NCBI RefSeq assembly: GCF_028463845.1
Contig: NZ_CP116805.1
Coordinates: 248,001 to 312,000 of the forward strand
Source: Gimibacter soli
Lineage (GTDB): Bacteria; Pseudomonadota; Alphaproteobacteria; Sphingomonadales; Kordiimonadaceae
Direction: 5' to 3'
Length of the DNA: 64,000 nt
Within the stretch, counting starts at the first letter, position 1. Every line of letters starts with the position of its first letter. The notes beneath the pieces are model-generated. The model did not search any database. It saw only the letters and a program-made list of their open reading frames with translations, and had not been told where the DNA came from. A program made the position numbers and the translations under genes. Below, piece by piece: positions 42,292 through 60,239 of this stretch.

Positions 42292-42317
42292 TCGTGTAAC
42301 ATATATATTTTACACGA
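42292..42317. promoter_or_regulatory. 26-bp near-palindrome, copy 1 (upstream of the integrase)
   Basis: Arms TCGTGTAA and TTACACGA flank an AT-rich centre, 26 bp in total. Near-copies lie at 51336-51361 and 60204-60229. This copy is 104 bp before the integrase start. It probably binds a protein coded by the element, either a repressor or a recombination/partition factor. Confidence 0.65.
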
Positions 42318-42385
42318 TAATTAACGTATTACATGAACTTCATGGCTTTCCTGAGATTACCCAGAATCGCCTGAATTGGATTTTT

Positions 42386-42406
42386 TTGGCTACCTATTGG
42401 CTACCT
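42386..42406 (+). repeat. Tandem TTGGCTACCT repeat before the integrase
   Basis: TTGGCTACCT occurs twice, at 42386 and 42397, with an 11-bp period, ending 14 bp before the integrase ATG. The position suggests either integrase/Xis binding with autoregulation or a site in the leader of the integrase mRNA. Confidence 0.55.
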
Positions 42407-42420
42407 GAAGGAAGCACACT

Positions 42421-43686
42421 ATGCCCAAGATCAACAAGACCCTGGTCGATAGCCTCACATCCACAGAGAAGGACTTCGTTCTATGGGACGATGAGGTGAA
42501 AGGGTTTGGTGTTCGGGTGTGGCCTTCTGAAAAGAGAACATTCTTTTTTCAGTACAGGCCCAGGGGCTTCCGGCAAATCAAAAAAATCACGCTTGGACAT
42601 CACGGCAAGGTAACGGCCGAAGAGGCGCGGCGCCAGGCAAAGACATATGCTGGCCAAGTGTCAGCGGGAGGTGATCCAGCCGCAGACATTGCCATGAAAC
42701 AGAAGGAAAAGGCCCAGCAGGTTCTTCTTGCGGATTTTTGCGATCGATATCTTGAAGCCGCCGACAAAGGACTGATTCTTGGGCGAAGCGGCAAACCTAA
42801 AAAAGAAAGTACGCTCAAAATCGATCGGGGTCGCGTTGCGCAGCACATCAAACCACTGCTCGGCAAGATCAGCGTGAAGGATATTTCTCAAGCCGACATC
42901 TCCAAATTCATCAAGGATGTGACGGTTGGCAAAACTGCCAAGGACGTTGAGTCAGGGAATCTGAGGGGTCGAACGGTAGTGAAAGGCGGGGCTGGTACAG
43001 CAACTAGAACGGTTGGCTTGCTTGGAAGCATTATGTCCTATGCCGTTTCAGAAGGATTGATCGCATACAACCCGGTGACTGGTGTGAAAAAGCCAGCCTA
43101 CGTTAAGCGAACCACGCGCTTAACTAAAAAGGAGTATCTAAAGCTCGGAAATGGCTTGGAAAAGTCAGAGTGGGAAGGTGATACGTATCAGGCGATCCTA
43201 GCGGTTCGCCTATTCGCTCTGACCGGATGCCGCAAAGCAGAAATTATCAACCTTAAATGGGATGAAGTGGACTTCACGAACCGATGTTTACGCTTGGGTG
43301 ATTCCAAGACAGGTGAATCGGTTAGACCTCTTGGCAAGCTGGCCATCGACCTCCTTAAGAATGCCCCACGATCCAACGAATGCGACTTCGTACTGCCTGG
43401 TGCTCGACAAAAGACGAAGCCCTTTGGTGGAATGGCAAGGGCATGGAAAAGAATTTTGAAGAGATCTGAATTGACCGGATTCACAATTCATACGCTTCGT
43501 CACTCGTATGCCAGCATGGCTGGTGATTTGGGCTATTCAGAAATCACTATCGGCGCCCTAATCGGCCACGCAGCAGGATCTGTAACGAGCCGCTATGTGC
43601 ACCACCTTGATGAGGTCCTTTTGGCTGCTGCGGATCGGGTTTCAGAAGCGATCGACACGGCCATGAGTGAAAAAAATGACGATTGA
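42421..43686 (+). CDS. Tyrosine integrase (P4-type, DUF4102 arm domain)
   Basis: A 421-residue site-specific recombinase. The N-terminal DUF4102 arm-binding domain is seen in VLWDDEVKGFGVRVWPSEKR and ITLGHHGKVTAEEARRQAK. The SAM-like core domain follows and the catalytic domain has the arginine in LTGCRKAEIINLKWDEV, the HTLRHSYASMAGDLG box, the second histidine in LIGHAAG and the nucleophile in SRYVHHL. It lies directly inside the tRNA-Arg remnant, as P4-type integrases do, and should catalyse integration and excision of this element. Confidence 0.95.
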   Translation: MPKINKTLVDSLTSTEKDFVLWDDEVKGFGVRVWPSEKRTFFFQYRPRGFRQIKKITLGHHGKVTAEEARRQAKTYAGQVSAGGDPAADIAMKQKEKAQQVLLADFCDRYLEAADKGLILGRSGKPKKESTLKIDRGRVAQHIKPLLGKISVKDISQADISKFIKDVTVGKTAKDVESGNLRGRTVVKGGAGTATRTVGLLGSIMSYAVSEGLIAYNPVTGVKKPAYVKRTTRLTKKEYLKLGNGLEKSEWEGDTYQAILAVRLFALTGCRKAEIINLKWDEVDFTNRCLRLGDSKTGESVRPLGKLAIDLLKNAPRSNECDFVLPGARQKTKPFGGMARAWKRILKRSELTGFTIHTLRHSYASMAGDLGYSEITIGALIGHAAGSVTSRYVHHLDEVLLAAADRVSEAIDTAMSEKNDD

Positions 43687-43769
43687 TGCATTTTTTTCGG
43701 GTCGATCTGCATGGATTTTCAGTTTCGTTTGATACGGTCATCTCAAGCAAACAACAGCGAGCTTGAGAA

Positions 43770-43994
43770 ATGATCGACAACGATAATAAACCTGCACTCC
43801 TGACCAAACCGCGCCTTCGGCGTGATGAGGTGCCAACTTATCTGTCACTCGTGCACGGCATCGAGATTGCCAAATCCACATTGGCAAAGTGGGCGGTGGT
43901 GGGAGGTGGGCCCCACTTCCAAAAATTTGGTCGCCGGCCGCTTTATCAGCCCGCTGACATTGATGCATGGGTGGCGAAGCGGCTAAGCATCTAA
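43770..43994 (+). CDS. AlpA-like HTH protein, possible excisionase
   Basis: A 74-residue protein in the position and size of an AlpA/Xis factor. The HTH-like part is [32 protein letters not shown], followed by [23 protein letters not shown], the wing pattern of MerR-like excisionases. It follows the integrase by 83 bp in the same direction. Probable role: directional control of excision or transcription control of the integrase region. Confidence 0.78.
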
Positions 43995-44097
43995 CAAGTT
44001 TCACCTGCCCTCTCTGACTTTTCGGTTGCGACTGAACTTTGTGCCACGCCAAAATCTCCCCAGAGGTTGAGATTATTGCTTTCTGGGGGAATGCGGC

Positions 44098-45888
44098 ATG
44101 GAGGACAGGATAGTTTACGGAATTGGTGTCCTGCTGGTGCTGATCTACCTCTGGCGTCAGACCCGACGAGATCATTCCCGCAAATCAGGCGAGCCCCGAA
44201 AAGAGCCTCGCATCCACACACCCAGGGTCCGGGTGTCAACCTATGTTGACACAAACACGATGGACGCCTCCTACGCGCGCCGCGAACAAGCCCTCGCTTC
44301 TTTCAAAAAATCCCACCAGTTCCCGAAAGACACCGACCAGGCCCTGCAAATGGCCCATATGGCGATGGAATACTATGCGACCAATCATGGACAGGATCTG
44401 GCGCTGGTGCGCTCAGAGGCTTTCGATCTAGGATTGTCTGAGGATCCGGTAGAGCGCGACAAGGTCCTACGCAAAGCGATTGCGACCTACTACAAGGACC
44501 GTGACGACCCGTTCGCCAAGACGGTCGCCGTATATCTCTCCCTTGAGCATGTCATCCTGCAGCTGACCAATCCCTTGCAGGGCTGGAAAAACTTCCTTGG
44601 TCTCCAAAAACTTCAAACCAACTGGAAGGCTGAAGAATATTTTGAGGCCTTGCTAGGGCTCCAGAATGCATACGTCGTCACTTTTCCCTTCTCGACAATG
44701 GATATAGCGACAAAAACCAAACAGGACATCGGCAGGACCCTGGAGCTGTGGCATGGGCGCACAGCGGCACACGAGCATTACGAGACCAACAAGGCCTATT
44801 ACGAGGAGGCAACACGAGCCGGTCAAAGATACTTTGCTGCTGTTTCGGTCGTGGACTATCTGACACGCCGCTACAAGTTCAACCCCGTAGGGTTTAGGGA
44901 TGAGCTGGTCATGTGGTGCGAGCGCGGAGTTTCCCTAATCGAGCCGTTCCTGGTTGAGTATAACGCTCAAAAAGCCTTCGACATCTATGACCCGAACAGG
45001 GACAGGAAAATCGCCAGAATGACACTGGAGAAGGTTCAAGCACTGCCATCATATGAAGTCCCGCGCCTGTCTCTTTATGAGACCCTGAAAGGCGTTCTGG
45101 AAGGCGAGAATGACCGCGAGGGACTGGCCAGGCTGCATCATCTTGGCGCCAGAATCAGATACGAGGATGGTGCCGAGGTAGCAATGGCGGCCCCAGATGT
45201 AACCGAGTCCCTTTCCATCGATGATATTACAACAATGATCGAAGTGAAGGCCTCTGGCGAAAAGGGCAAATTGGCCTTTTTGCGGAAAGATGGAACGCCT
45301 TGCTCAACAGAAGACGCGTTCGCCGATCATATGGAAGCGGATGGATGGAAGGTTATGCGGGCTGAAGTTTCATTCTGGCAAGCCATGTTCTGTCTTACCT
45401 TCTGGGACGAGATATTCACCGGGATGGGAACTCCGCAGCACGGAGCAGATATTCCCATCGACTTGTTCCGTGATGAAACCTTCTACAGAGCGCGCGAACA
45501 AAGCATCGATCAAAAGTTTGCAAACCTGTCATCGGCCAATCTGAAGGTCTTCATTAATCGGCAGATCGGCAAGACAAGAGGGGCCTGGACCCGGCTATTG
45601 TTCGATGGGGATGAGGATCTCCTTCGCTATGCTAGGTCGTCAATCGTGCAGGAGTTTCTGGAGATTTTCCCGGCTCCTCTTTTCGCCAAGATCGTCTACA
45701 GGATTGCTACAAATCCAAACCAGAACCGTGCTGGTTTGCCCGACTTTATTGTGTGGAAGGAAGACACGATGAAGTTCGTAGAAACCAAGAAGGTCCGCGA
45801 GCAGCTACGGGAGGCGCAATTCGAATGGCTCCAATGGCTTTCAGACGAAAATGTGCCGATCGAAATTTGTCGGGTGAAGGCTGCTTAG
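44098..45888 (+). CDS. Membrane-anchored VRR-NUC nuclease-like protein
   Basis: A 596-residue protein of unknown family with three visible parts. Residues 5-20 (IVYGIGVLLVLIYLW) form one membrane helix; then comes a basic linker and a long alpha-helical region to about 440. The C-terminus is a VRR-NUC/FAN1-like PD-(D/E)XK nuclease: PIDLFRDETFYRAREQSID, then GLPDFIVW (Asp549) and VETKK (Glu562, Lys564), then QFEWLQWLSDENVPIEICRV. All catalytic positions are present. VRR-NUC enzymes cut branched or flapped DNA. A membrane tether on such a nuclease is unusual and would fit defence against incoming DNA, which is inference. It is convergent with the next gene. Confidence 0.78.
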   Translation: MEDRIVYGIGVLLVLIYLWRQTRRDHSRKSGEPRKEPRIHTPRVRVSTYVDTNTMDASYARREQALASFKKSHQFPKDTDQALQMAHMAMEYYATNHGQDLALVRSEAFDLGLSEDPVERDKVLRKAIATYYKDRDDPFAKTVAVYLSLEHVILQLTNPLQGWKNFLGLQKLQTNWKAEEYFEALLGLQNAYVVTFPFSTMDIATKTKQDIGRTLELWHGRTAAHEHYETNKAYYEEATRAGQRYFAAVSVVDYLTRRYKFNPVGFRDELVMWCERGVSLIEPFLVEYNAQKAFDIYDPNRDRKIARMTLEKVQALPSYEVPRLSLYETLKGVLEGENDREGLARLHHLGARIRYEDGAEVAMAAPDVTESLSIDDITTMIEVKASGEKGKLAFLRKDGTPCSTEDAFADHMEADGWKVMRAEVSFWQAMFCLTFWDEIFTGMGTPQHGADIPIDLFRDETFYRAREQSIDQKFANLSSANLKVFINRQIGKTRGAWTRLLFDGDEDLLRYARSSIVQEFLEIFPAPLFAKIVYRIATNPNQNRAGLPDFIVWKEDTMKFVETKKVREQLREAQFEWLQWLSDENVPIEICRVKAA

Positions 45889-45951
45889 CTGTTAGTGCCC
45901 CGGTCGAAGCACCAGCCTGCTCGTACAGATGCAGTTTATCTTCACCCTATA

Positions 45952-47070
45952 TTAGACTCCAGGAAGAGCATCCAATATCTGATTAGGATCAGGCAGTGGG
46001 GGCACGATGAACTGACCTGGCCTATCAATAGAAGCTAGATACTCACCGATCCTGATATCCACTCTACGACTTGTGAAAGTGACCGATTGGGATGGAGATA
46101 CCATAGGCGCCCATTGGCTGAGAAGGCCTAGATTCTGATTAGAATAAAATCGGTTAGCGCTCTCAAAAATTGGCAAACAATTATCGATTTCCTTGAAAGC
46201 AGCTTTTGCTGCCTTAATCAAATCTTCAAGCTCGTCATTGCTGAAAGAGTCGCTCGATGTAGCATGCCTCATTTGTTTCATGGTTTTTCTAAGGACAATA
46301 TCTGCCTCAGCGAATCTCGTCTGTTCTGAGGAGGCCTCCTTCAAAAATTCAAATCCAAGAGCTCGATCCTTAAGATACTTAGTAACCTGTCGCATGACAG
46401 GCTTAACGGCTCTGATCCGTAGATTTATGTCTTGGACTCGTTTCTTAAAGATTGTCTCTTTTATGCGATTTTGTTTGAAGTCAGCTTCGATTTTTTCCAG
46501 CTCCTTAGCGACGGCTTCCTTTGCCCGCTGAGTGGCCTGAAAATCCTCTTCGAAGGTGTCGTAAGCTAGTCTCCCATCAGATCCTATGTGATCAAGCAGA
46601 GAGTCAAACTTATCGATCGAGTTATCAGCCAGCTCAATAAGACGGGGAAATAAGTCATTCTCGATTCTGGTTATCTTCTCGAGGTATGTTGGAAGAAATT
46701 CCTTCAGTAAAATATATCGATTAACAGAAATCTGCCTTTTTCTGGCAGTGTCGTGCCGGGTCTTGAGTCCGGCAAAGTCACCCCCAAATTCCTTCTTCCC
46801 ACAGTCGATTCCAGCAAGGAATTTTACCCCGCTAGGGGACATCATTATGAAGCCCTGGTTGTGTTTATGTCTTCCAGGCAATGAGCACTGGAGCAGCTTG
46901 GTTCCCTTAGGTGCAGGCAAAGAGTATTTTGCTTGGATTACCGCCTCCGCCCAATCTGGGGGGGCGATGATCGCATATGGAGAAACAAGGGCGATATCAT
47001 CATAGAATAGCCTGAGTTTCAGGAGGTCTTCGTCAGACATTTCATGCTGGTTGTCATGCTTGTCAGGCAA
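45952..47070 (-). CDS. Hypothetical coiled-coil protein with Cys/His cluster
   Basis: A 372-residue protein not matched to a family I know. Near residue 65 it has a possible zinc site: a cysteine in LLQCSLPGRHKHNQGF, two histidines in the same stretch and a second cysteine in FLAGIDCGKKEFGG. The centre (about 150-290) is a charged helical coiled coil. Homologues of such Cys/His-then-coil proteins occur in accessory regions. It has AT-rich codon use compared with the chromosome. Function unknown. Confidence 0.6.
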   Translation of the reverse strand: MPDKHDNQHEMSDEDLLKLRLFYDDIALVSPYAIIAPPDWAEAVIQAKYSLPAPKGTKLLQCSLPGRHKHNQGFIMMSPSGVKFLAGIDCGKKEFGGDFAGLKTRHDTARKRQISVNRYILLKEFLPTYLEKITRIENDLFPRLIELADNSIDKFDSLLDHIGSDGRLAYDTFEEDFQATQRAKEAVAKELEKIEADFKQNRIKETIFKKRVQDINLRIRAVKPVMRQVTKYLKDRALGFEFLKEASSEQTRFAEADIVLRKTMKQMRHATSSDSFSNDELEDLIKAAKAAFKEIDNCLPIFESANRFYSNQNLGLLSQWAPMVSPSQSVTFTSRRVDIRIGEYLASIDRPGQFIVPPLPDPNQILDALPGV

Positions 47071-47186
47071 TGCACAATCTCAATACGTTTCTATTTTGTT
47101 CCAGATAATTATGTATATCAAATCTACTGACATTTGCGAGTCATAATGATCTACTTGAACGGGTGCCTCTCATCAAAAGGGGGGTC

Positions 47187-47504
47187 ATGTTGGGACGCGG
47201 ACTGATGATAGCAATCTCACTCCTAGCTGTTCATTTTATGCATGCTGCAGGTGTGCCAGCATGGGTAGCCGGGACATTAGCTGCTCTCAAATTTACTTGG
47301 TTTGCTTGGCAAACTTGGGTGGAGCCTTGGCTTGCCGCAAAGAATCTTCCAGACCATGTCAAAGAAGAGATTGCCGCACATAATGAGCGGATGGCACAAG
47401 CCAAACCAATAGAAGCCATGGCCCAGATTGTGAGAGCCAATGCAAAGAAGGAACCGGATTTTCTAAGATCACCCCAAGCCTCTGCTTGGCTAGCATCATA
47501 TTAA
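47187..47504 (+). CDS. Small membrane protein
   Basis: A 105-residue protein. Residues 1-25 (RGLMIAISLLAVHFMHAAGV) and the next stretch (VAGTLAALKFTWFAWQTWV) are hydrophobic and likely form two membrane helices; the rest is a soluble tail with a charged helix. The ATG at 47187 is preferred to a GTG 24 bp upstream because AAAAGGGGGG stands just in front of it. No family recognised. Confidence 0.6.
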   Translation: MLGRGLMIAISLLAVHFMHAAGVPAWVAGTLAALKFTWFAWQTWVEPWLAAKNLPDHVKEEIAAHNERMAQAKPIEAMAQIVRANAKKEPDFLRSPQASAWLASY

Positions 47505-47631
47505 GCTCACCCCAACCCTAAAGACTTTGGATGGTGGGTGCATAATCTGACTGCGAAGGTTGAAGTTGCACGATCAGTGACAACAGACGAATGAAGCGAG
47601 CGGTAGCTCCGCTTCATTCGCGAGAATGGGA

Positions 47632-48045
47632 TCAGGTTCTCTTATCGATCTCTACGCCGGTCAGGGGCACAAGCCATTCTGATGCTTCCATCAAGGCCCG
47701 TTTCTGTGAGCGTGAAAACCTCCCCCATACCTCACCGTGGCAGGGGTTGCTGTCCAGCGGATCCAGTCCGACCATGAGCTCAACATCTCTGGCCGCGCCT
47801 GCCGTAAACTGCACAGCGCCTTTCCACTTGGGGGTAACGACATATTCTTCCGGCATGCTGCCGGTAGCAGTGATCAACTTTTCAATATCGACTGACATCC
47901 CGCCACCAGAGGACGGAGAAAATACCTGACTGGACAGGCGATTGGTCTGCAGGTTCTCATCGTAAACGAGGTGGTTTTCGGGATCGATGCGGCGAATGAT
48001 CAGGTCGTCTGCCTCAATCGAGTCATCATCGTACGGCGCCACCAT
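47632..48045 (-). CDS. Hypothetical protein, third gene of the TIGR04255 cassette
   Basis: A 137-residue acidic protein (N-terminus with DDDSIEADDLIIRRID) with no known domain. It starts 8 bp after the preceding gene and is probably cotranscribed with the two genes upstream on the minus strand. Confidence 0.6.
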   Translation of the reverse strand: MVAPYDDDSIEADDLIIRRIDPENHLVYDENLQTNRLSSQVFSPSSGGGMSVDIEKLITATGSMPEEYVVTPKWKGAVQFTAGAARDVELMVGLDPLDSNPCHGEVWGRFSRSQKRALMEASEWLVPLTGVEIDKRT

Positions 48046-48053
48046 ACGAAAAA

Positions 48054-48587
48054 TCAGCCTTCAGCAGCGACGGCTACAGCATCAGTCCGCCCGCGGTTCG
48101 AAAGCTGCTTCACCCAATTTTGGACCGAACTGAAATCGTTTGTCAGGTTAAACTCTTCTTCATGCCCGGAGTTCCTATCGTAACGATACGCATTCACCTT
48201 ATTTGGGGCCAAGACATGGATTTCGACATCATAGCCGTTGCGATGCCATTCGATCTGAACGGTGCCGTCACTTCCAGGTACTAGGCTCGGCGGCGGTACA
48301 TACTCTTCATTGAGACGGTCCAGAATGTTTGCCGCGAATTCGGCACAACTCCATGAGACAGGAACCCCCTGATAGCCATCCCACCCTCTGGGCAAAGCCG
48401 TCAGTTCATCAAATCGCGGACGCAGAACGGACATCCATTCAGACTGATACGTCTCGACAACAATACGATGAGGTCTGAAGTCGCGTCGAATTATCTGGCC
48501 TGAGCTCTGTGACAAGTTGAGAGTCGAAAACAGGTCCATGTGATTTTGAAACGCACTTGTGAATATTGCATTGGCTTTTGGGCTCAT
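48054..48587 (-). CDS. Hypothetical protein, second gene of the TIGR04255 cassette
   Basis: A 177-residue protein with a LPRGWDGYQGVPVSW stretch and a later strand pair SDGTVQIEWHRNGYDVEIHV. This GWDGY...EWH pattern recurs in small proteins of accessory regions but has no assigned function. It overlaps the upstream gene by 4 bp (ATGA), so translation is coupled. Confidence 0.62.
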   Translation of the reverse strand: MSPKANAIFTSAFQNHMDLFSTLNLSQSSGQIIRRDFRPHRIVVETYQSEWMSVLRPRFDELTALPRGWDGYQGVPVSWSCAEFAANILDRLNEEYVPPPSLVPGSDGTVQIEWHRNGYDVEIHVLAPNKVNAYRYDRNSGHEEEFNLTNDFSSVQNWVKQLSNRGRTDAVAVAAEG

Positions 48588-49924: not shown

Positions 49925-50296
49925 ATGTCAGGAAAGCGATATACTGCTGAAGATGTGAGAATGCTGACCAAGGCGATCAATCGGATTGCTGACCTATGGA
50001 GCATCAAAAACTCAGATCTTGGCGCCATTCTTGGCGTCTCGCCTGCGAGCATCAGCCAACTTCGCAATGGCGCTCGGGAGCTTTCCCCCGAAACGAAAGA
50101 ATTCGAACTTGCACAATATCTGGCGCGCCTGTTCCACAGTCTTGATGCAATGGTGGGCAGTGATGATCGAGCCGCAAAGAGCTGGCTGAACACCGAGAAT
50201 AGAGAGCTTCAGGCTAGGCCGATTGATCTTCTCAAGACCATCCGAGGTCTCGTAGCTTGCGCTGACTACCTGGATGGGTATCTAGGCACAAACTAA
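49925..50296 (+). CDS. Xre/MbcA/ParS-like antitoxin-family protein
   Basis: A 123-residue protein. The N-terminal half is an HTH (AINRIADLWSIKNSDLGAIL, then GVSPASISQLRNG) and the C-terminal half resembles the toxin-binding domain of the Xre/MbcA/ParS family (ARLFHSLDAMVGSDDRAAKSW followed by LQARPIDLLKT). These antitoxins normally accompany a RES-domain toxin. No RES gene follows here; the next gene is a phosphoesterase on the opposite strand and the preceding one is GNAT-like. Confidence 0.75.
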   Translation: MSGKRYTAEDVRMLTKAINRIADLWSIKNSDLGAILGVSPASISQLRNGARELSPETKEFELAQYLARLFHSLDAMVGSDDRAAKSWLNTENRELQARPIDLLKTIRGLVACADYLDGYLGTN

Positions 50297-50307: not shown

Positions 50308-51132
50308 TCAGACCTCAACGACTCCCCATTGAAACGGTGGAAGCCCTTCTCCTGGATAACCTCTTTGACTAGATAGGATTCTGGTCCGACCGATTATCTG
50401 ATCATAATTCCAGTGAGTATGACCAGAAATCCAATAATCCGGGATTAGCTGACCACCTGCAATTTCATCGGCCCAGGAGTTGTAAAAGTAAGGCCCTAGC
50501 TCGTCTCCAGCATGAACAGGATCGGACATAAAAACGGGCGGGAAATGGGTGAGGACTACTGTTGTCCCGACATGAGTTTTAGCGAGTTCCTGATATAGCC
50601 AGTCCCGGGATTCCGCATTGATGCGCTCAGCATCTTTCGGCGAAAAAGGACGATCTACACCAAGCTGGCGGATTTGAATCTGCCGAAAATCGTGCAGAAA
50701 TTTTCTGGCGGCCTCCTGAGCAGACTCTTTCCACTCAGAGCCATACGCCAGAAAATCGGTCCAAAGCGTGCAGCCCAAAATCCTGACGCCATTAATCTCG
50801 ATAACATCTCTTTCTAGGAAAAAGACACTGCCCTGGAGACCATGTTTTTCGGCATATGTTCGGCAAGATTCGAGATAGTCATCCAGCACCGCGCCGTAAA
50901 ACTCATGGTTTCCGGCGACTGCTACTACCACTTTCCCAGTTCTTTCATGCACCAGATGCGCCCACACCATCAGCCGAGGGGATGATGGGTCGTCCCTCCC
51001 ATTCCACGCCGGCTCGTACCCGACATCGACGTCCCCCAGGAGAGCAATCAAATCCACGTCCAAAACAGGCGACAGATCCGGCAAACCTTGTCCAAATTCA
51101 AAATGCAGATCCGATCCGAATGCAATTTTCAT
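50308..51132 (-). CDS. Calcineurin-like metallophosphoesterase
   Basis: A 274-residue phosphoesterase with all dimetal motifs: SDLHFEFG at the start, LLGDVDVG, VVAVAGNHEFYG, a histidine in VVLTHFPPV and the final GHTHWNYD. It is a single-domain cytoplasmic enzyme. The substrate (nucleotide, phosphodiester, protein) cannot be told. It is convergent with the antitoxin-like gene, separated by only 11 bp. Confidence 0.9.
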   Translation of the reverse strand: MKIAFGSDLHFEFGQGLPDLSPVLDVDLIALLGDVDVGYEPAWNGRDDPSSPRLMVWAHLVHERTGKVVVAVAGNHEFYGAVLDDYLESCRTYAEKHGLQGSVFFLERDVIEINGVRILGCTLWTDFLAYGSEWKESAQEAARKFLHDFRQIQIRQLGVDRPFSPKDAERINAESRDWLYQELAKTHVGTTVVLTHFPPVFMSDPVHAGDELGPYFYNSWADEIAGGQLIPDYWISGHTHWNYDQIIGRTRILSSQRGYPGEGLPPFQWGVVEV

Positions 51133-51335: not shown

Positions 51336-51361
51336 TTGTGTGTAATGTATATTATACACGA
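51336..51361. promoter_or_regulatory. 26-bp near-palindrome, copy 2 (upstream of the TSP1-like gene)
   Basis: Reads TTGTGTGTAA, centre TGTATA, TTATACACGA and is almost identical to the copy at 60204 (two differences). It lies 110 bp before the gene start, in a 339-bp gap that otherwise holds the promoters of two divergent genes. I saw no RNA gene in this gap. Confidence 0.65.
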
Positions 51362-51471
51362 ATATTGAAGTGAAAATCCGTCATGTCTGTGACTTTTTGT
51401 TGGATTTTCAATTACGTGCCGATTCTTTAAATGATAAATTGGCCTCATTAATACATTATGAGGCCAGCATA

Positions 51472-52959
51472 ATGACACATGCATCTCCCACCCTGAAAAT
51501 ATTCACTGCGTTATCTTTAGCCGTAGCGGGACTTTTGGCCTTTGAAGTATCCGTTCGTGCAGGTGAATCGGATGGTCGAACATCAGCATATGAAGCACAG
51601 GACGGGGCGTCGTTAACCCCGGAACAGATGGAGGCTGGCTATAGTCTCCCGATACTCGCTCACGCTAAAACGGTTGGACATGCAAGAGAGGTAGGCTTTG
51701 CCAATACGGCCGGCACGGCGGCGACCGTCGACCTCGCCACACAGGCGACGCGCGCACTGAAGGCAGATGATGCCGACAAGCTTTCGGGTAACAGCGCATC
51801 CTATTATACGAACGCGAGCAATCTCTCGAGCGGCACTCTCAACATCAATCGCCTGGTCGGATCGCTTGTCGATAGCGACAACAAGATTCTGAACTCGCTG
51901 ATGAGCGGTGAGACCTACGACATCTCGATCAGCGGGAATTCGTCGACGGCCACTTCTTCGGCAAATTGTACAGGCGGCAGTGCGAACTGCGATTATTTCA
52001 CCTTTGCCTGGAATCCATCTTCGTGGACCGCCTGGTCGGCTTGTATGGCTGGAATGCAGTCCCGGACACGCGCGGTAATTTGTGAACGCTCGGACAAGCC
52101 GGGTGTGGTGCAACTCGACACTAACTGCTCGGGCCTAAAGCCTGACATGTATGAGAGCATTGCATGTGCGGGCTATTCATATAGCTACCAGACCGGTAAT
52201 TGGGGCGGCTGGTCCGCTTGCTCCGGCGGGTCCCAATCCCGCAGCCGTTCTGTCTGGTGCGAGCGCTCTGACGGCGCCACGGTGCCTGACTCCTACTGCT
52301 CGGGATCGAAACCTTCGACGACATCATCGCAGTCCTGTACTGTCACGACTTATGACTGGGCCTACTCCGGCTGGAGCGGTTGGTCTTCATGCTCGGGTGG
52401 CAGCCAGTCTGCCACTCGGACAGTCTGGTGTGAGCGTTCAGATGGTGCAACCGTGTCCGACAGCTATTGCTCGGGCTCAAAGCCTTCGTCATCGAAAACA
52501 CAATCCTGTTCGTCGGCGTCTTACAGTTGGTGGGCTGGAAGCTGGGGCTCTTGGGCTGGGTGCGCAACGGACCCGTCAGCCGGCACTCGAACGAGGACAG
52601 TTCAGTGTCGCAACGACCTGACTGGTGCAAAAATTTCGACAACTTATTGCGCGGGCGCCACAAAACCGGCGACGTCGGAAACTAAGGCCTGCCCGCCGCC
52701 TCCAACTGGTTTGAAGTGGATTTTCACCCCCTTCCCTTCCACAGTCACCTGTCCGCGGGGCTGCACGCCTACGACTTACGCAAAGTCGCCCCCCATGGCC
52801 GGAGAGAAGCGTTCGCTAAGTGCTCCTTCCTCATCTGCCGCCTGCACCATCGGCTCGACGTACACGCATGTAATTAAGTCCGGCTGGACTGCGAAGTGCA
52901 CCGGCACTACCGGCATCTGCATGGAGACAATACAGATCAAGCGGTACAACTGCTCATAG
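51472..52959 (+). CDS. Secreted protein with tail-fibre-like segment and four thrombospondin type-1-like repeats
   Basis: A 495-residue exported protein. A signal peptide (LKIFTALSLAVAGLLAFEVSVRA) is followed by a segment like phage tail-fibre repeats (KLSGNSASYYTNASNLSSGT, about 105-135). Then come four Cys/Trp-rich repeats of the TSP1 type, starting about residues 183, 242, 300 and 357: WTAWSAC, NWGGWSAC, GWSGWSSC and SWGSWAGC, each with an RTR/RSR arginine strand and later paired cysteines. The C-terminal 90 residues have more cysteines but no known fold. TSP1 repeats are adhesive modules, rare in bacteria; a surface-binding role is inferred. The ATG at 51472 gives the signal peptide and has GAGG before it. 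Confidence 0.75.
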   Translation: MTHASPTLKIFTALSLAVAGLLAFEVSVRAGESDGRTSAYEAQDGASLTPEQMEAGYSLPILAHAKTVGHAREVGFANTAGTAATVDLATQATRALKADDADKLSGNSASYYTNASNLSSGTLNINRLVGSLVDSDNKILNSLMSGETYDISISGNSSTATSSANCTGGSANCDYFTFAWNPSSWTAWSACMAGMQSRTRAVICERSDKPGVVQLDTNCSGLKPDMYESIACAGYSYSYQTGNWGGWSACSGGSQSRSRSVWCERSDGATVPDSYCSGSKPSTTSSQSCTVTTYDWAYSGWSGWSSCSGGSQSATRTVWCERSDGATVSDSYCSGSKPSSSKTQSCSSASYSWWAGSWGSWAGCATDPSAGTRTRTVQCRNDLTGAKISTTYCAGATKPATSETKACPPPPTGLKWIFTPFPSTVTCPRGCTPTTYAKSPPMAGEKRSLSAPSSSAACTIGSTYTHVIKSGWTAKCTGTTGICMETIQIKRYNCS

Positions 52960-53905: not shown

Positions 53906-53944
53906 TCTCTCCTGACATACGAGCATAAATCAATAACTCCCCCC

Positions 53945-53973
53945 TTGAAATTATGGGCAATTGCCCATATATT
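53945..53973 (+). promoter_or_regulatory. Promoter with an 18-bp palindromic operator in its spacer
   Basis: TTGAAA (53945-53950) and TATATT (53968-53973) stand 17 bp apart. The perfect palindrome TATGGGCAATTGCCCATA (53952-53969) fills the spacer. Binding of a dimeric repressor would block this promoter. The HTH gene at 54008 is the first downstream and likely codes the repressor. Confidence 0.72.
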
Positions 53974-54007
53974 ATAAACATTGGTATGGTCGTGGAGTTT
54001 CCTTGAT

Positions 54008-54232
54008 ATGATGTTGCCAGACGAGATTAGGAAAGCTCGCGAGAGTTTGGGTTTGAAGCCAGCCCAGCTCGCTATCTTGCTTGATACGGATACTCTTTCG
54101 ATCAGGAGAATGGAGCTCGGCTCTCATTGTTCAACACACCGCAAGCCGGCACCACGCATGGAGCGACTGATACGCGCTTACCTATCCGGCTACCGACCCG
54201 ACGACTGGCCGGATAACAGAAAGGAAAAATGA
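54008..54232 (+). CDS. Small HTH protein, probable autorepressor
   Basis: A 74-residue HTH protein; EIRKARESLGLKPAQLAILL, followed by DTDTLSIRRMELGSHCS, fits the recognition-helix pattern of MqsA/Xre-like transcription factors. The start is one of two adjacent ATGs (54008 or 54011). A palindromic operator lies in the promoter upstream. The stop codon is followed after one base by the ATG of a 28-residue hydrophobic peptide. Confidence 0.72.
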   Translation: MMLPDEIRKARESLGLKPAQLAILLDTDTLSIRRMELGSHCSTHRKPAPRMERLIRAYLSGYRPDDWPDNRKEK

Positions 54233-54233
54233 C

Positions 54234-54320: not shown

Positions 54321-54337
54321 AAATTCGAAACCAAAAG

Positions 54338-54363: not shown

Positions 54364-54376
54364 GCATTATTCCATC

Positions 54377-56665
54377 TTAATCCTTCACGTTCGGTCGTAG
54401 AGATCCACCCTCCGGATTGACATTTTCAATGTCGACACCAGCGCTGCGTACACGGCCAGTCGGGGTCTTGTTCATGGTAGCGGCAGCAGCCACGACCCCC
54501 TCAAATCTCTGGGTTATCCCCGTCCCCGCGAGTGCTCCAGCTACATCCCCCTCGACGTTGCCGCGGCTCTGGATATTGAACCAAACGTTGAAGATTGTAT
54601 CAGGGACCGACGTCATTAGTCGGAAGGAGAGCTTTCCGATGTACCAGGCCACCACGACCTGGAAAACGAGCATGACAATCGTTGCGGTGATTCCGACTTT
54701 CCCAGCAACCATCCCGTTAAAGAAGGGGATGAACTGACTCATGGCGATTGATATGAAAATATAGTAAACCGCTATCGTTAGGAAAAATCCGATCACGATC
54801 AGCATCGGTTTAATCAGCACGCCAAGGAGTATCAGCCATCCAGGCACCATCCGGTTGTCGACGAACTCATCGCCCTTGAAGCTCATGTGGATGACCATCC
54901 ACAGGGGGGCCGCCAGGATTGCTTCAACTACGCCTATCATCCACTGAAAAATGGCGAAGAGGTAATTGATCCAGACCATGAAGGGGATGACAAAGGCGAA
55001 ATACACACCAACAAGGAACAGCGTTCCAGCCATGCTATTCGTGTAGGTTGAGAGGCTCTGATGAAGAGAAACTGCCGCTGCCAGGCCTCCGGACAGTGGA
55101 GCAGCAGCGGCTCCTGCGACAGGTTGATTAGCCAGATTGTCCGCCGACTTGGCAGCTGCAGTAAGGATCATTTTTGCTCCAGCCATCCCGCCGAATATGG
55201 CCTCGGATGTATTCAGCAGGATGTGCCCGAACCCGGTCAGTGAAGTGATGGGGTCAACCACCCCTCCGCCTTCCATCATATCAGCGAGTTTTTCTGGATC
55301 TGCTCCATTTGCCATCGCTTCACGGTATTCAGCACTATCCTCGGCACTCCCGCCTTCCGCCGAGAAGTTTGTGATCGACAGGGTTGCATATTGTGCCCTT
55401 CTCACCGATTGCGTGAGGTACTTACTGAACCAGTTTTTCAGGCTGTCGAAGCCGTCGCTCCATACTTCGACGGACATCATGTCCGACCATTCCAGTTCTC
55501 GTTCTTTTTCATTCACATCGATTGAAAATCCGGTTCCGCGGTCAACCATCAGCCACGTGTCATTTATTGTGTGCCGGAACGCTTCAACCTTTCCCGAAAT
55601 GTGATCGTCGTTATTGAACTGTTCGATAATGTAATCCCAATCCGGCCCGACAATTTTCGGGAGGAAGCGCATCCCGCTTGCTGCGCGAGCGTTCAGCTTG
55701 CTAATTTCCAGCCAGTACATTCCCGCGCCGGCCCAACCACTTTTCAGGGCTCTGTCTTTGAAATCAGCCCGCAGGCGATCCCCTTCTTCGTCTGCAATCA
55801 TGGCAGCCTGCGCGATAACTAATTGATTATATTCTGAAATCGTACCGCCGATTTTGCCCGCAGCAGTGCGGTTGGAACTGTCTTTCCATTTCGTCGTTCG
55901 CGAATTGAGTGTCATCCCTGCGATATTGACAAGCATCGGCTGCGCAGCCCTTGCAATTTTTTTGATTTGCTGGGCGTGCAGATTTTGCATGGCGGTTACC
56001 GCCGGGGCTGACACATCTTCTCCCGCAATTGCTGGTCCACCAATTTGGGCACTGCCACACGCGTTCTTGCCAAGGATCTCTTCCCCGTCGACCATCAGTG
56101 GCGTTGTCGTTAATTGCAGATTACCCTGACCATCCTCGCCCATTAGGATGAGTTCTATCTCATTGATCTTTTCCAAGTCGTATCTTTCAAAAAAGATCGA
56201 ATTAATGAGCACTCTGCAGCTTTGGATTTCCCAGATCTGCTGCGCAACTCGCGTTACATCCAACCCGTTTGACGCCGAGATAGGCGATACGTGTTCGGTC
56301 ATCTGGTTCACGCCTCGCTCCCAAAGGTCGTTTGCCATACCAACAGCTTGCCCCGCGATCGCCATGATCACTGAAATAATAATAGGGTAGCCCGAGGCAG
56401 TCGGCGCCAGCATCGTGAAAGAGCCGACCACCCGGAGCATGCCCCAGGTGCCAGACCAGCCGCGGCCGAAGGCCTCACCATCTTTGGCGCTGTTCACGAT
56501 TCCAATCAGAAGAAGATAGGTCAGCCAACCCGTCGCTACGACAAGAACATACGAGTTGTACTGGTCAAATAAAGTTGCGATGACAGAGCCACCCTGCCCG
56601 CTGGCGGAGGTGATCACGTCAAGGGCGCGATAGATTTGATCGTTTTCATATCCAGTTTCGACCAT
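54377..56665 (-). CDS. DotA/TraY family inner-membrane protein
   Basis: A 762-residue multi-span membrane protein of the DotA/TraY family, a part of type IVB (Dot/Icm, IncI-type) conjugation systems. An N-terminal helix pair (YVLVVATGWLTYLLLIGIV; ISVIMAIAGQAVGMAN) frames a long periplasmic loop. A cluster of helices is found at the C-terminus (FLVGVYFAFVIPFMVW, WLILLGVLIKPMLIVIGFFL, ITATIVMLVFQVVVAWYIGK). The start at 56665 follows GGGGAAAAA and its ATG shares the TAATG of the upstream stop codon. No other Dot/Icm component appears in the window. Confidence 0.82.
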   Translation of the reverse strand: MVETGYENDQIYRALDVITSASGQGGSVIATLFDQYNSYVLVVATGWLTYLLLIGIVNSAKDGEAFGRGWSGTWGMLRVVGSFTMLAPTASGYPIIISVIMAIAGQAVGMANDLWERGVNQMTEHVSPISASNGLDVTRVAQQIWEIQSCRVLINSIFFERYDLEKINEIELILMGEDGQGNLQLTTTPLMVDGEEILGKNACGSAQIGGPAIAGEDVSAPAVTAMQNLHAQQIKKIARAAQPMLVNIAGMTLNSRTTKWKDSSNRTAAGKIGGTISEYNQLVIAQAAMIADEEGDRLRADFKDRALKSGWAGAGMYWLEISKLNARAASGMRFLPKIVGPDWDYIIEQFNNDDHISGKVEAFRHTINDTWLMVDRGTGFSIDVNEKERELEWSDMMSVEVWSDGFDSLKNWFSKYLTQSVRRAQYATLSITNFSAEGGSAEDSAEYREAMANGADPEKLADMMEGGGVVDPITSLTGFGHILLNTSEAIFGGMAGAKMILTAAAKSADNLANQPVAGAAAAPLSGGLAAAVSLHQSLSTYTNSMAGTLFLVGVYFAFVIPFMVWINYLFAIFQWMIGVVEAILAAPLWMVIHMSFKGDEFVDNRMVPGWLILLGVLIKPMLIVIGFFLTIAVYYIFISIAMSQFIPFFNGMVAGKVGITATIVMLVFQVVVAWYIGKLSFRLMTSVPDTIFNVWFNIQSRGNVEGDVAGALAGTGITQRFEGVVAAAATMNKTPTGRVRSAGVDIENVNPEGGSLRPNVKD

Positions 56666-57126
56666 TATTTTTCCCCTTTTCTTTTGAGGAGGTTGAGGCA
56701 CGAAATTACTGATTTCGGCAGTGGAAGTTGTTTCAACCAGTCGCAAAATTCGAGGAATGTCCGTTCTTCTGCCTGGCGCACCCGCCAAAACTTCTCGAGG
56801 CTGAGCACGAAAAAGAGAATGGAAACGGCCATAGGATACAGGCCACGATTCCACTCGGTTTGGCAAAAGTTGTAGATTCCGAGGCCGAGGCTGCTGATGC
56901 TCATCGCACCAAGTATCAGTCCAACCGTCCGCAGGTGTTCGACGGTGGATGAGAGATCAGCAGATGACATGTTTCGCATCTGCATCATTTCTCGAAACGT
57001 GCTGAATGGCATGGCGGGGCGAACCAGACGGTCTTTCAGCGCTCGCAGATTGTTGCGGCTTCGAAGAGCAATCCGCCCGACCTTGTCGGCACCGAGATCG
57101 GGTTTAACGAGATTTGTAATTTTCAT
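56665..57126 (-). CDS. Small membrane protein upstream of DotA/TraY-like gene
   Basis: A 153-residue protein with two adjacent hydrophobic helices (VGLILGAMSISSLGLGIYNF, then YPMAVSILFFVLSLEKFW). The remainder is basic. Its stop overlaps the DotA/TraY start (TAATG), so translation is coupled. In IncI1 plasmids traX stands directly before traY; I suggest this as a positional analogue only, since no sequence match to TraX is seen. Confidence 0.6.
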   Translation of the reverse strand: MKITNLVKPDLGADKVGRIALRSRNNLRALKDRLVRPAMPFSTFREMMQMRNMSSADLSSTVEHLRTVGLILGAMSISSLGLGIYNFCQTEWNRGLYPMAVSILFFVLSLEKFWRVRQAEERTFLEFCDWLKQLPLPKSVISCLNLLKRKGEK

Positions 57127-57215
57127 CTAGGAATCCTCTTCCGTTCACTGCCTGTTGCGGGCAGCGTTTTTCGACCAATCTTATCAGCTGAGACTGAAAA
57201 TCCCGGCGAAACGGC

Positions 57216-57422
57216 TCAGTAAAATTGCGGCTTTTCGCGATTTTCGAGATCGGCGATGAGCAGTTGGGCCTCTTCACAATCGAGGTCCGGGCAGGATGCG
57301 AGCATATCGCGGAGATCGGCTTCGTCTCCGTGCGCGCCAACGGCGTCGAGCTCTTCGATCCAGACCTGAAGAGGGGTGGCGATAGGATTGACGGTTTTGG
57401 AAGTGGCGGTTACGTTTGTCAT
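57216..57422 (-). CDS. Hypothetical 68-residue acidic protein
   Basis: A small soluble acidic protein with the start at the ATG at 57422 (AGAAAGAA upstream). LQVWIEELDAVGAHGDEADL and CPDLDCEEAQLLIADLEN form likely helices with a CxxxxC pair. The frame is open further upstream, but that part overlaps the preceding gene. It lies inside the mobilisation operon. No family recognised. Confidence 0.52.
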   Translation of the reverse strand: MTNVTATSKTVNPIATPLQVWIEELDAVGAHGDEADLRDMLASCPDLDCEEAQLLIADLENREKPQFY

Positions 57423-57493
57423 GTCGATTCTTTCTATCTTAGAGGTTAGGGTCGCGACCTTATGGCCAGGCTTGTTGCACCAAGCTTGGCCAT

Positions 57494-57694
57494 TCACTTT
57501 TGATCGTTTGGTTTTGATGGAAACAGCCCGCGCACAAAGACGGGGGCGGCGACTACGAACAACGCAAAAACGAAGCTTTTCGTAAGCCACCCATAGTAGC
57601 TCGCCACGGCACCGGCCATCGCCATTGCGCAAAAAAGGATATGCCAAGCTTCGGCGATATCCTCCACGAGCCTATTAAAAACAGGTTTTTTCAA
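57494..57694 (-). CDS. Small membrane protein of the mobilisation operon
   Basis: A 66-residue protein with two hydrophobic segments (WHILFCAMAMAGAVASYYGW and FVFALFVVAAPVFVRGLF). Its start overlaps the relaxase stop by 4 bp (ATGA), so it is translated together with the relaxase. A role in coupling the relaxosome to the membrane is possible but only inferred from position. Confidence 0.6.
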   Translation of the reverse strand: MKKPVFNRLVEDIAEAWHILFCAMAMAGAVASYYGWLTKSFVFALFVVAAPVFVRGLFPSKPNDQK

Positions 57695-59550
57695 AGGGTG
57701 ACTCCTTCATTAAAGTATGGATCGCTGTGATCGAATTCAAATTCGTCCTGGTTGTCGTTCGATTTTCGATTTTTGATCTCTTCTAGTTTTTCCTGCCATG
57801 CTGCGTGCAGGGCTGGATCTGTGGCTTCGATCGGCAACTTCATGCGTGCCGCTTCTTGCGCGATCAGCATCTGAAACGCAGCCCCCTCGCCTGGCGGGAT
57901 GGGCACGGCCTTCATTTTCCGGCGACGGGCCGAATAAACAAATTCTCGCGCCCGATCGGGAAGCTGTTCTACCGAGATTTTTTCGAGTTCAGCCTGGTAA
58001 ATTTCCTGGGCACGCGGGTCTTCTGCCTCGATGACGACGCCGATCCGGGCAGCCTCGCGAGCGGCTAGAAGTTGAAACTCGAGACCACCTTCGACCACGA
58101 CTGTCGACCATTCCTTGGCCTTGGCCATTTGAAGCATGACGGCGACAGCGTCTGCATCGACGGCACTCGCTTCAAGCGCATCGCCGCGATCTCGAATCTG
58201 GATAAATTTTGGCTCGGCATCCTGCTGCCGCGAACGGATAACTGTCTTTTCTTCGCTGGCCCAGACGATTTGAGGCAGGATCCAGCTCGGCAGATCTGCG
58301 TCACGGTAAATTACAAAAAAATGCCGAACGCGCCGCTCAGACTGCCTGCCTGCCGGTTTGACCGCGCACACCATCTCGGGCTCCCGAGCCACTTCGGCAA
58401 GGGCCTCAAGGGCATCTTCCTGCTCTTCCGCGATCGTTGCTGCGGGCTGATATGGCGGTTTGTGCGGGTCAATATTATACAAGCCATACCTTTTACGAAC
58501 CGCCGCCGCGCGTGCCTTCAGGACTTCGGCAAAATCTGCTGAGTAATATTCTGGGTCCTGGCGTCGCTGGCCAATTTCGCCGGCGAGCATCCCCATGATT
58601 TTATCGGCAGAGGTGAATTCGCGACTGAAGAGTGCACCAGCCACTTTGATTGGCCGGCCGCCTTCGCGTCCCGGGACGTTGAACGTGACATGTTTTCGGC
58701 CTTTCCCACCTGCCGCGCGAGACTTTTGCCAGGCCTCGGAGGGCGTCCATCCGGCCGCTGCAAACTCATCAACGAGCTCGTCGACATTATCAACGAGGCC
58801 GGCGCCGAACAAAATTCTTGCCGCGCGCCCAAGGCGACACTCCATAACTTGTCGATTAGCGCCCCGCGCGGAGTTTAGCGTCATCCGCACCAGGTCCCTA
58901 ACCGCCTTCTCATTTCCCAGGAATTCAATTTGTGGTTCTGCGAGCTCCGCCTGAAGATTTTCGTCCCCCGCTGCTGCTTTTTTCTGAATTTCCGGTCGCG
59001 CCCGAAACAGCTGCATCCGCTGCGGATTAAAGGGATCAGCTAAGCCGTATTTTTGATTGATGTGGTCGCCTAGAATGTTGAAGTGGGTGATGGAATAAGA
59101 GTTTGGCTGCGGGTCAAACGCGCGCTCTACCCCGTCCACAATGATAGAGGTAGAGAGCATGCAATTGATCTCAACGCGCCCCCGATCCAAATGGAAATTC
59201 CAAAACCGGGCCGGCCAAATTGATTCATCCAGGCCTGCGAACATCATTTTTTCGGCTAGCGAGACGATATCGGTGGCCCTCTTCAATTCAGCCGGGTCGT
59301 CAGTGAGAATTTTTTGCCAGTCGAGGTCAAGCTCATGACCGCTAAGAGTAAATGTTCGATATTTGACGTCTCGGCTGATCGCGCTAACTGCTGCAAGAAC
59401 CGCTTTCGGATCGCCAAGGAATGGCTTCGGCGGCACAGAACGTCTGATCAGCTGACCGCTCTGCCACTTCGTCTCTCCTGTCAAGTATCGCCAGGCGCCC
59501 ATTCCTGTTGGGTCGGCCTTGCCCTTGTGCTTTGACCACGTCGGCATCAT
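57691..59550 (-). CDS. Relaxase, HEN-type (MOB family with H-E-N motif)
   Basis: A 619-residue relaxase. The presumed nucleophile tyrosine is Tyr22 in GMGAWRYLTGE. The metal site is the variant HxxxxxxExN: His120, Glu127 and Asn129 in FHLDRGRVEIN, as in the ColE1 MbeA-type relaxases, instead of three histidines. The C-terminal half contains two similar segments (residues about 455-560), probably duplicated domains: AKEWSTVVVEGGLEFQLLAA and PIPPGEGAAFQMLIAQEAAR. It is preceded by mobC with a 4-bp overlap. It should nick the element's oriT and lead strand transfer. Confidence 0.82.
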   Translation of the reverse strand: MMPTWSKHKGKADPTGMGAWRYLTGETKWQSGQLIRRSVPPKPFLGDPKAVLAAVSAISRDVKYRTFTLSGHELDLDWQKILTDDPAELKRATDIVSLAEKMMFAGLDESIWPARFWNFHLDRGRVEINCMLSTSIIVDGVERAFDPQPNSYSITHFNILGDHINQKYGLADPFNPQRMQLFRARPEIQKKAAAGDENLQAELAEPQIEFLGNEKAVRDLVRMTLNSARGANRQVMECRLGRAARILFGAGLVDNVDELVDEFAAAGWTPSEAWQKSRAAGGKGRKHVTFNVPGREGGRPIKVAGALFSREFTSADKIMGMLAGEIGQRRQDPEYYSADFAEVLKARAAAVRKRYGLYNIDPHKPPYQPAATIAEEQEDALEALAEVAREPEMVCAVKPAGRQSERRVRHFFVIYRDADLPSWILPQIVWASEEKTVIRSRQQDAEPKFIQIRDRGDALEASAVDADAVAVMLQMAKAKEWSTVVVEGGLEFQLLAAREAARIGVVIEAEDPRAQEIYQAELEKISVEQLPDRAREFVYSARRRKMKAVPIPPGEGAAFQMLIAQEAARMKLPIEATDPALHAAWQEKLEEIKNRKSNDNQDEFEFDHSDPYFNEGVTL

Positions 59551-60014
59551 TTCGCGACACCCCGCTCGCGCTCGTCTGCGATACGGGCGAAATGGAAAGT
59601 TGCTTTTTTTGCCGATTCATCAATGGCATGAAGCACATCTTTCATGCGATCAATGAGGTTGATCATTTCATCGGCCCTGCCCGCGGCAACAAGGTAGTTG
59701 GCCGCGTGCGAGATCTGGTTGACGTTCACGCCGATTTTCTGAAGCTGGTACGAAAAATGGGTCATAGCTTGGGCAAGCGCGCGATCTGCTGACCTATCAG
59801 TGTCGCCGATTGTGGTGCTGCGATCTCGCCCCCATTCTGAATCGTTTGAGCAACCAGCAGCACGCGCGCAGCGAGTGATTAGGGCGCGCTCGCGCGGAGT
59901 CACACGAAATTTAAAGTCAACCGACTTGAGGTTATCGCACCCCCCACTTGCAGCACCATCCTCGGGAGAGGTGGGGAAAGTGGCACGGGAAGAGATTGCA
60001 GTTACATCATCCAT
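59547..60014 (-). CDS. mobC: MobC-like mobilisation protein
   Basis: A 155-residue relaxase accessory protein. The MobC family pattern is clear in KFRVTPRERALITRCARAAG (DNA-binding half) and YQLQKIGVNVNQISHAANYL (the IGxNxNQ signature). It assists strand opening at oriT. Its stop overlaps the start of the relaxase. It begins the minus-strand mobilisation operon; the region upstream (60015-60523) holds the candidate oriT and several repeats. Confidence 0.87.
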   Translation of the reverse strand: MDDVTAISSRATFPTSPEDGAASGGCDNLKSVDFKFRVTPRERALITRCARAAGCSNDSEWGRDRSTTIGDTDRSADRALAQAMTHFSYQLQKIGVNVNQISHAANYLVAAGRADEMINLIDRMKDVLHAIDESAKKATFHFARIADERERGVAK

Positions 60015-60063
60015 CTCGGTCGAACTCGTTCACACTGCGCGCCAGCGCCAGGCCAGGGGTGTC

Positions 60064-60119
60064 AAGAGGGGCGCAGCCCCTTTTGCAAGGATCAAATGGT
60101 GGCTGTGGCCACGTTTGAT
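60064..60119. promoter_or_regulatory. Candidate oriT hairpins next to mobC
   Basis: Two hairpins follow each other 50-105 bp upstream of the mobC start. The first is AAGAGGGGC-GCA-GCCCCTTTT (60064-60084). The second is an imperfect hairpin with outer arms ATCAAA / TTTGAT and inner GTGGC / GCCAC (60091-60119). Short hairpins like AGGGGCGCAGCCCCT next to mobC/relaxase genes are usual in oriT regions of mobilisable plasmids. The nick site is not identified. Confidence 0.5.
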
Positions 60120-60193
60120 ATGCTTGCTCCAAGCAACAACAGAATCACACCAACCAAGTGAACAGTCAATAATAATTATGAAAATCCATCAAT

Positions 60194-60239
60194 AAAACAA
60201 GTATCGTGTGTAATATATATTATACACGATACTTGTTTT
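60194..60239. repeat. 46-bp palindrome containing copy 3 of the 26-bp dyad
   Basis: Bases 60194-60239 pair with each other around the axis at 60216/60217 with one mismatch (60210/60223) in 23 pairs. The central 26 bp (60204-60229) match the dyads at 51336 (two differences) and 42292. It may be a protein-binding site, a cruciform-forming origin/transfer element, or a combined terminator. It lies in a 509-bp gap without genes. Confidence 0.75.

Follow-up and report, generated by a model that had tools for sequence, protein, structure and literature searches.

A 26-bp dyad on two mobile elements of Gimibacter soli as a predicted operator for one trans-acting protein

The subject of this work is a 26-bp dyad that recurs in the genome of Gimibacter soli (NZ_CP116805.1, a single contig of 3,591,784 bases), mainly on a mobile element that we call element A. 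Our window is a stretch of 64,000 bases, positions 248001-312000 of this contig. Element A measures about 30.0 kb, is flanked by a perfect 62-bp repeat and has its right end at extended position 72212, beyond the window. Extended coordinates run past the window, and for this part we also use the numbering of locus L007, whose first base is window position 60001. A first-pass annotation had reported three dyads in the window, and all three lie exactly where it placed them; a fourth site is present on the outer part of element A and a fifth on a different island, element B. The sites are the following:

42292-42317: dyad s1, TCGTGTAACATATATATTTTACACGA; 103 bases 5' of the integrase ATG and 33 bases beyond the end of the left attachment (att) repeat
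51336-51361: dyad s2, TTGTGTGTAATGTATATTATACACGA; in the space between two divergent genes, those for a metallophosphoesterase (start 51132, minus strand) and for the TSP1 protein (ATG 51472, plus strand)
60204-60229: dyad s3, TCGTGTGTAATATATATTATACACGA; between the divergent nikA-like gene (start 60014, minus strand) and Y-family polymerase gene (plus strand)
60194-60239: extended palindrome around s3, 46 bp, with 23-base arms that are 96% complementary
Extended 68204 (genome 316204): dyad s4; element A, outside the window, beside the replication iterons
Genome 2857608: dyad of element B, between a NikA-like gene and a TOPRIM gene

The window sites had been called near-identical, which holds for s2 and s3 (24/26 bases), whereas s1 is rather a cousin, with 20/26 bases common to s2 and 22/26 to s3. 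The element B site is 25/26 identical to s2 and likewise to s3. Palindromic pairs number 12/13 in s1, 10/13 in s2 and 12/13 in s3, and the ten arms of the five sites give the inverted half-site consensus TYGYGTRTAATAT, with T1, G3, G5, T6, A10 and T13 invariant. The outer hexamers are spaced 20 bp from centre to centre, which corresponds to two helical turns.

The features of element A within or reaching out of the window are listed here, with E-values in brackets:

42198-42259: left attachment repeat, whose 62 bp recur without change at extended 72151-72212, in the region of the tRNA-Arg(CCG) gene
42421-43686, plus: tyrosine integrase (Pfam PF00589, 3e-19)
43770-43994, plus: AlpA-like small helix-turn-helix (HTH) protein (weak HTH_17 match, E 0.019, below cut-off)
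49925-50296, plus: Xre/MbcA/ParS-type antitoxin-like HTH protein (PF09722, 7.8e-13)
50308-51132, minus: metallophosphoesterase (PF00149, 8.7e-11)
51472-52959, plus: TSP1-repeat protein, first gene downstream of s2 (PF19030, 1.7e-10 on the open reading frame 51370-52959)
54008-54232, plus: small HTH regulator (phrog_14076, transcriptional regulator, 2.2e-19)
54377-56866, minus: DotA/TraY-type type IVB transfer protein (TIGR04346, 1.4e-80, above cut-off)
56665-57126, minus: IcmV-like protein, weak (NF038219, 4.9e-4, below cut-off)
57691-59550, minus: relaxase with LPD7 C-terminus (PF18821, 9.2e-15)
59547-60014, minus: NikA/MobC-like relaxosome protein (PF21983, 4.7e-7; PF05713, 7.2e-7)
60395-61771, plus, likely start 60524: Y-family DNA polymerase (PF00817, 5.6e-32)

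The tRNA-Arg(CCG) gene is intact at L007:12155-12231, and the guanine-plus-cytosine (GC) content is about 0.60-0.63 outside element A and mostly 0.48-0.57 inside. All 27 listed genes of the element were scanned with Pfam, most of them also with NCBIfam; the only transfer-related ones among them are the relaxase, the NikA-like, the DotA/TraY and the weak IcmV-like genes, and no ParA/ParB- or FlhDC-type gene was recognised among the 27 by Pfam. The TSP1-repeat protein, judged by eye, is putatively secreted, and a VRR-NUC protein and a subtilase-like protein are also encoded. Among 59 relatives, this genome included, DotA/TraY was found in this genome only; in a sample of the class it was found in 17 of 385 genomes, this one again included. 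DotA/TraY and the weakly matching IcmV-like protein are the only type IVB transfer components recognised on element A, and could replace pore parts of a helper, as do TraG/TraH of Salmonella genomic island 1 (SGI1).

Beyond the window, the replication region follows in the order iterons, s4, HTH, 251-aa protein, RepA-type helicase and TOPRIM protein:

L007:8023-8112 (extended 68023-68112): iteron array, 21 bp in 4.3 copies
L007:8334-8636 (extended 68334-68636): excisionase-type HTH protein, first gene after s4
L007:8780-9535: 251-aa protein, following HTH 68334
L007:9525-10490: RepA-type helicase, matching 1g8y (2.7e-18), which we take to be RepA of RSF1010
L007:8334-11432: the gene block as a whole, with the TOPRIM protein as last gene of the replication operon

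Together with the iterons, these genes look like the replication block of a plasmid, here within an integrated element. Searches with the 251-aa protein matched nothing in NCBIfam, Pfam, PDB, PHROGs or plasmids, and its structure model has a mean pLDDT (predicted local distance difference test score) of 39.5. HTH 68334 had no relatives on plasmids, and in viral contigs no relatives of the 251-aa protein or of the helicase were confirmed. Judged from gene content, element A appears to be an integrative mobilizable element, one that excises before it replicates and depends on a type IVB helper.

Several further observations concern the same region. Perfect 22-bp inverted repeats, 144 bases apart, lie at 60253-60440, directly 5' of the Y-family polymerase gene, with TGAGATAGGAAC present twice direct and once inverted; they may be an operator set of that gene or a small miniature inverted-repeat transposable element. 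Just inside the right att repeat, at L007:11897-12029, a cluster of TATCAGGTATC-type repeats could represent directionality-factor or arm sites. From window position 62683 to L007:7610, an SMC-like ATPase with similarity to Lamassu LmuB (5.2e-29) adjoins a 616-aa protein without any match, a candidate defence pair, and a PEP-CTERM-like protein is encoded next to element A.

Element B (genome 2825782-2866875, loci L011-L013) is a low-GC island of about 41 kb, with an integrase beside tRNA-Leu(TAA) (L013:6860-6946) and, tentatively, a short att-like repeat (20/21 bases) at about 2825782 and about 2866855. Its relaxase and its TOPRIM protein are each 24% identical to those of element A (1.5e-23 and 8e-19), and a match of the element B relaxase to MbeA of ColE1 (4.6e-19) falls below the cut-off. 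The dyad lies nearer to the TOPRIM gene than to the NikA-like gene. TonB-receptor, tryptophan-halogenase-like and glycoside genes, named by eye, stand beside the mobilisation genes, as in a metabolic island. Both elements also hold a GC-rich 97-bp stretch, 78% identical (element A, L007:11439-11534; element B, genome 2854713-2854808, L012:14713-14808), whose hairpins look, by reading, conserved by paired changes; it was not found in plasmids and is possibly an origin of transfer or an RNA element.

The dyads stand out clearly from the composition of element A. Ranked by similarity to s3, its sites match at 26, 24, 22 and 20 of 26 bases and everything else at 17 or fewer, the next-best 17/26 match being a register shift of s3 itself. 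In 300 dinucleotide shuffles of element A the maxima were 15-20; a single shuffle reached 20 and none exceeded it. This significance comes from the full dyad and not from the outer hexamers alone, which, at up to 2 mismatches, gave four matches in the window, a number that is not significant and speaks against the claim (at least four were found in 13 of 100 shuffles).

The distribution over the whole genome is equally restricted. An initial search returned four strong loci (s1, s2, s3 and 2857608), and two places at 3 mismatches, 316204 and 2571128. The pattern TCGTGT-N14-ACACGA, at up to 1 mismatch, occurs at six loci (reversed control, one), three of them in element A, which is 0.84% of the genome (binomial, 1.1e-5). 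When the AT core is included, at up to 3 mismatches, five loci remain, four on element A and one on element B, and the reversed control gives none. Many chromosomal copies, which the first-pass annotation would have taken as the mark of a host regulator, were thus not seen.

The setting of the sites is also consistent with a regulatory function. All four sites of element A are intergenic, while only 12.3% of its 26-mer positions are (P = 0.0019 for three sites and 2.3e-4 for four, using our own gene list). Moreover, the 40-base flanks of site pairs match at 7-19/40 bases, with a mean of about 12, which is near chance (no shuffles were run for this comparison), as against 17-25/26 bases in the cores. 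Therefore, the sites are not remnants of a long duplicated segment, and the near-chance flanks together with the intergenic position of the element A copies indicate that it is the dyad itself that is conserved. In addition, s4 and the element B site each precede an operon or gene holding a TOPRIM protein, and a TTGACW hexamer starts at the 7th (s4) or 8th (element B) base past the dyad; on element B it belongs to TTGACA-16-TTAAAT, a promoter that would be well placed for an activator bound at the dyad.

We propose that the dyads are operators for one trans-acting protein on elements A and B, a prediction from sequence to which we give a probability of roughly 0.7. A single dimeric or tetrameric DNA-binding protein would bind the inverted TYGYGTRTAATAT half-sites in trans on both elements. 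On element A it would act on integration through s1, on the surface operon through s2, on mobilisation and the polymerase through s3 and on the replication operon through s4; on element B its sole site would serve the TOPRIM gene, which is related to the one that ends the replication operon of element A. The bound protein would then be a transcription regulator that times integration or excision, replication and transfer. One factor for several modules of one element had been suggested before, and the intergenic sites, the near-chance flanks and the few chromosomal copies agree with this suggestion; the element, however, continues past the window with a fourth site that it had not taken into account.

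Several results weigh against the operator proposal. The fourth site, s4, is weak, with 20/26 bases common to s3 and 8/13 palindromic pairs by hand count, and its best-scoring promoter starts 40 bases past the dyad instead of 7. No convincing sigma-70-like promoter stands at a constant distance from s1, s2 and s3, the best reaching 8/12. The s3 and element B sites share a few flanking bases as well (33/38 by blastn), so that these two could also be of recent common origin. Conservation in related elements, which had been named as a test, was found on element B and nowhere else: 20 loci with integrase relatives (E 1e-80 or better) have no dyad upstream, although at one of them, L068, the upstream stretch is only 277 bases. 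The dyad was in none of 28 other genomes of the family at up to 2 mismatches, and in none of 395 others of the order, evenly sampled, at up to 3. Of 27 other genomes or plasmid records, five contain the outer hexamers, none of them with the AT core, and the reversed control likewise occurs in five. The dyad is confined to one genome in these searches and has, therefore, no evolutionary replication beyond it.

Other searches gave similar results. At nine plasmid loci with relatives of the relaxase or the polymerase, the best matches were 14-16/26, no better than the 15-18 of eight plain shuffles of one such locus. The dyad was also missing from the same-genus genome G004 and from two more plasmids, and the exact pattern was absent from the species contigs of GTDB, from which records of this genome are possibly excluded. 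Relatives of the relaxase were confirmed neither in GTDB contigs nor in viral contigs, and an order-wide search with it matched this genome only. A looser core pattern found 45 stretches in viral contigs, about the number estimated by chance, none with a TATATA or TGTATA centre. With the s3 region, blastn against plasmids returned only matches at E 3-9, and here the low-complexity filter may have masked the core.

Which protein would bind the dyads? Element A encodes HTH proteins at 43770, 49925, 54008 and 68334. The first-pass annotation had pointed to 43770 and 54008, the nearest to the window sites; we favour instead the excisionase-type HTH 68334-68636, beside s4, as the best local candidate, on evidence that is suggestive only. 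This protein (2.3e-6) and an HTH protein that adjoins the element B integrase (8.8e-8) both match phrog_66, a broad family described as 'excisionase and transcriptional regulator'; direct comparison of the two gives 1.3e-4. A point against the proposal is that no dyad precedes the HTH gene of element B. The structure model of HTH 68334 (mean pLDDT 60.3) is too poor for use. We give about equal odds to a binder encoded on the element and to one supplied by a helper element that this genome lacks. The NikA-like proteins were also considered as the common binder, as s3 lies upstream of nikA, and are not our first choice, their N-terminal strands differing by eye between the two elements. Separately, a palindrome around TGGGCAATTGCCCA at 53951-53976, 5' of HTH 54008, is unlike the dyads and is the likely operator of that gene.

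It is tempting to speculate that the dyads copy operators, or parS-like centromere sites, of an absent conjugative plasmid or integrative and conjugative element, which is a narrower form of the operator proposal and, in our view, possible but somewhat unlikely. Two different islands with a 25/26 identical site would fit such mimicry. So would the presence of DotA/TraY and the IcmV-like protein on element A; no other DotA/TraY gene was found in the genome, and therefore a type IVB helper, if used, lies elsewhere. SGI1 is described as doing both, with AcaCD-responsive promoters and parS-like repeats that bind the ParB of the helper (PMC10954446). Against this, at up to 3 mismatches the dyad was in none of six DotA/TraY-bearing plasmids of Gluconobacter, Acetobacter, Roseomonas and Pseudomonas, and none of six Sphingomonadales plasmids, a very small sample of possible helpers. 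Going further, both islands might have adopted the operator of the same absent DotA/Icm-type (type IVB) helper, whose entry would set off excision, RepA/iteron replication and mobilisation jointly, along with a substitute TraY pore part, an SGI1-like lifestyle arisen separately around a different transfer machine; this fuller scenario we consider unlikely.

We find it quite improbable that the dyads are Xer/dif-like sites of a tyrosine recombinase that resolves or shuffles modules. XerCD dif and pdif sites are 28 bp long with an 11-6-11 layout, and three of our sites share this layout, as ATCGTGTGTAA-TATATA-TTATACACGAT. The TATATA centre is present in three of the four strong sites and TAA/TTA inner ends in three sites, and the inner 12 bp of the dyad presumably resemble the Bacillus dif site. 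However, the inner motif is broken in s1 (ACA..TTT) and in the right arm of s4, and TAA-N6-TTA is thus not in all copies. Moreover, the arms of the dyad are nearly equal, whereas XerC and XerD arms differ from each other. As for a standard proteobacterial dif, none could be recognised in this genome, where the best matches (1-2 mismatches) are no commoner than the reversed control; a search for a host dif gave one site near mid-chromosome common to the same-genus genome, within a 93% identical stretch, and is not convincing. Similarly, the absence of the dyad upstream of the 20 integrase relatives indicates that it is not an arm site of that recombinase family.

Just as improbable is a site of a chromosomal host regulator. 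The outer hexamers do occur, at 1 mismatch, at genome 2292623 and 2571128, but the AT core is missing at both places, the chromosome search found no further strong copy, and the other family and order genomes searched have none. The whole-genome distribution therefore argues against a host regulon.

Folded as RNA, s3 gives a 21-bp stem (-26.3 kcal/mol, z -8.1), s2 -11.5 (z -3.5), s1 -10.1 (z -1.5) and the element B site -7.1 (z +0.27). Terminators or RNA hairpins, which the strong fold of s3 and the moderate one of s2 might suggest, are very improbable, since s1 and the element B site fold weakly, the DNA dyad is the one feature that all sites share, and terminators are not expected at s2 and s3, which lie between divergent genes.

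If the operator proposal is correct, one control protein acts on two different mobile islands, and the dyad is its sequence tag. It would also point to type-IVB-dependent mobilizable elements in alphaproteobacteria, with the dyad as a means to search for their helper and regulator. No occurrence of its letters was found in the open literature, nor, judged from listings, any description of such an element among works on TraY/DotA islands; the motif and element A are new within the literature searched. The kind of arrangement, in which a mobile element carries one operator at several of its modules and different islands have it in common, is already known.

Plasmid-wide regulators offer a first comparison. 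KorA and KorB of RK2 act at operators of several plasmid modules, and ArdK is a plasmid-wide repressor; likewise, element A carries like predicted operators at several intergenic regions. In contrast to these systems, to which we liken it by description and not by operator sequence, the dyads are common to two different elements. The replication module of IncQ (RSF1010) has its counterparts in the RepA helicase of element A and in its iterons, 20-22 bp being the IncQ range. A RepC initiator also belongs to the IncQ module, and the protein considered for this part is the 251-aa one, for which the databases gave no match. As to integration, the Sphingobium fuliginis plasmid pPDL2 is described with an integrase and an attP typical of integrative mobilizable elements (PMC3516476).

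The closest likeness is to SGI1 and its IncC helpers. As described for SGI1, element A is an integrated island, predicted to be mobilizable, with excision, replication and transfer-pore genes distributed over several operons, which one activator site would connect; a seemingly unrelated island carries the same motif, and the element has its own iteron replication and its own mating-pore subunit (PMC4605294, PMC7433901, PMC5389848). Like SGI1, it also has att repeats with its own integrase, and relaxosome genes without a complete transfer apparatus. In SGI1, AcaCD-responsive promoters drive xis, rep, traN and traHG, while the ParB of the helper binds two repeats of parS-like type, located near rep and traG (PMC10954446). 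Like the dyads, which are likened to them by description and not by sequence, these repeats are inverted, nearly perfect and few, and lie near rep and near transfer promoters; they differ in being 22 bp long, and element A has no recognised ParA/ParB. Further differences are that the AcaCD core motif given for SGI1, GCCCTAAAAGGGC, is not that of the dyad, which holds no AcaCD/FlhDC-type core site, that a site precedes int in element A while the SGI1 int is described as constitutive, that the pore part is DotA/TraY (type IVB) instead of the TraNHG of SGI1, and that the target is tRNA-Arg. The AcaCD motif has also been documented on a seemingly unrelated island (PMC4605294), so that one control site across islands has a precedent, and a second, independent case beside the AcaCD islands would help to show how islands gain a common trigger.

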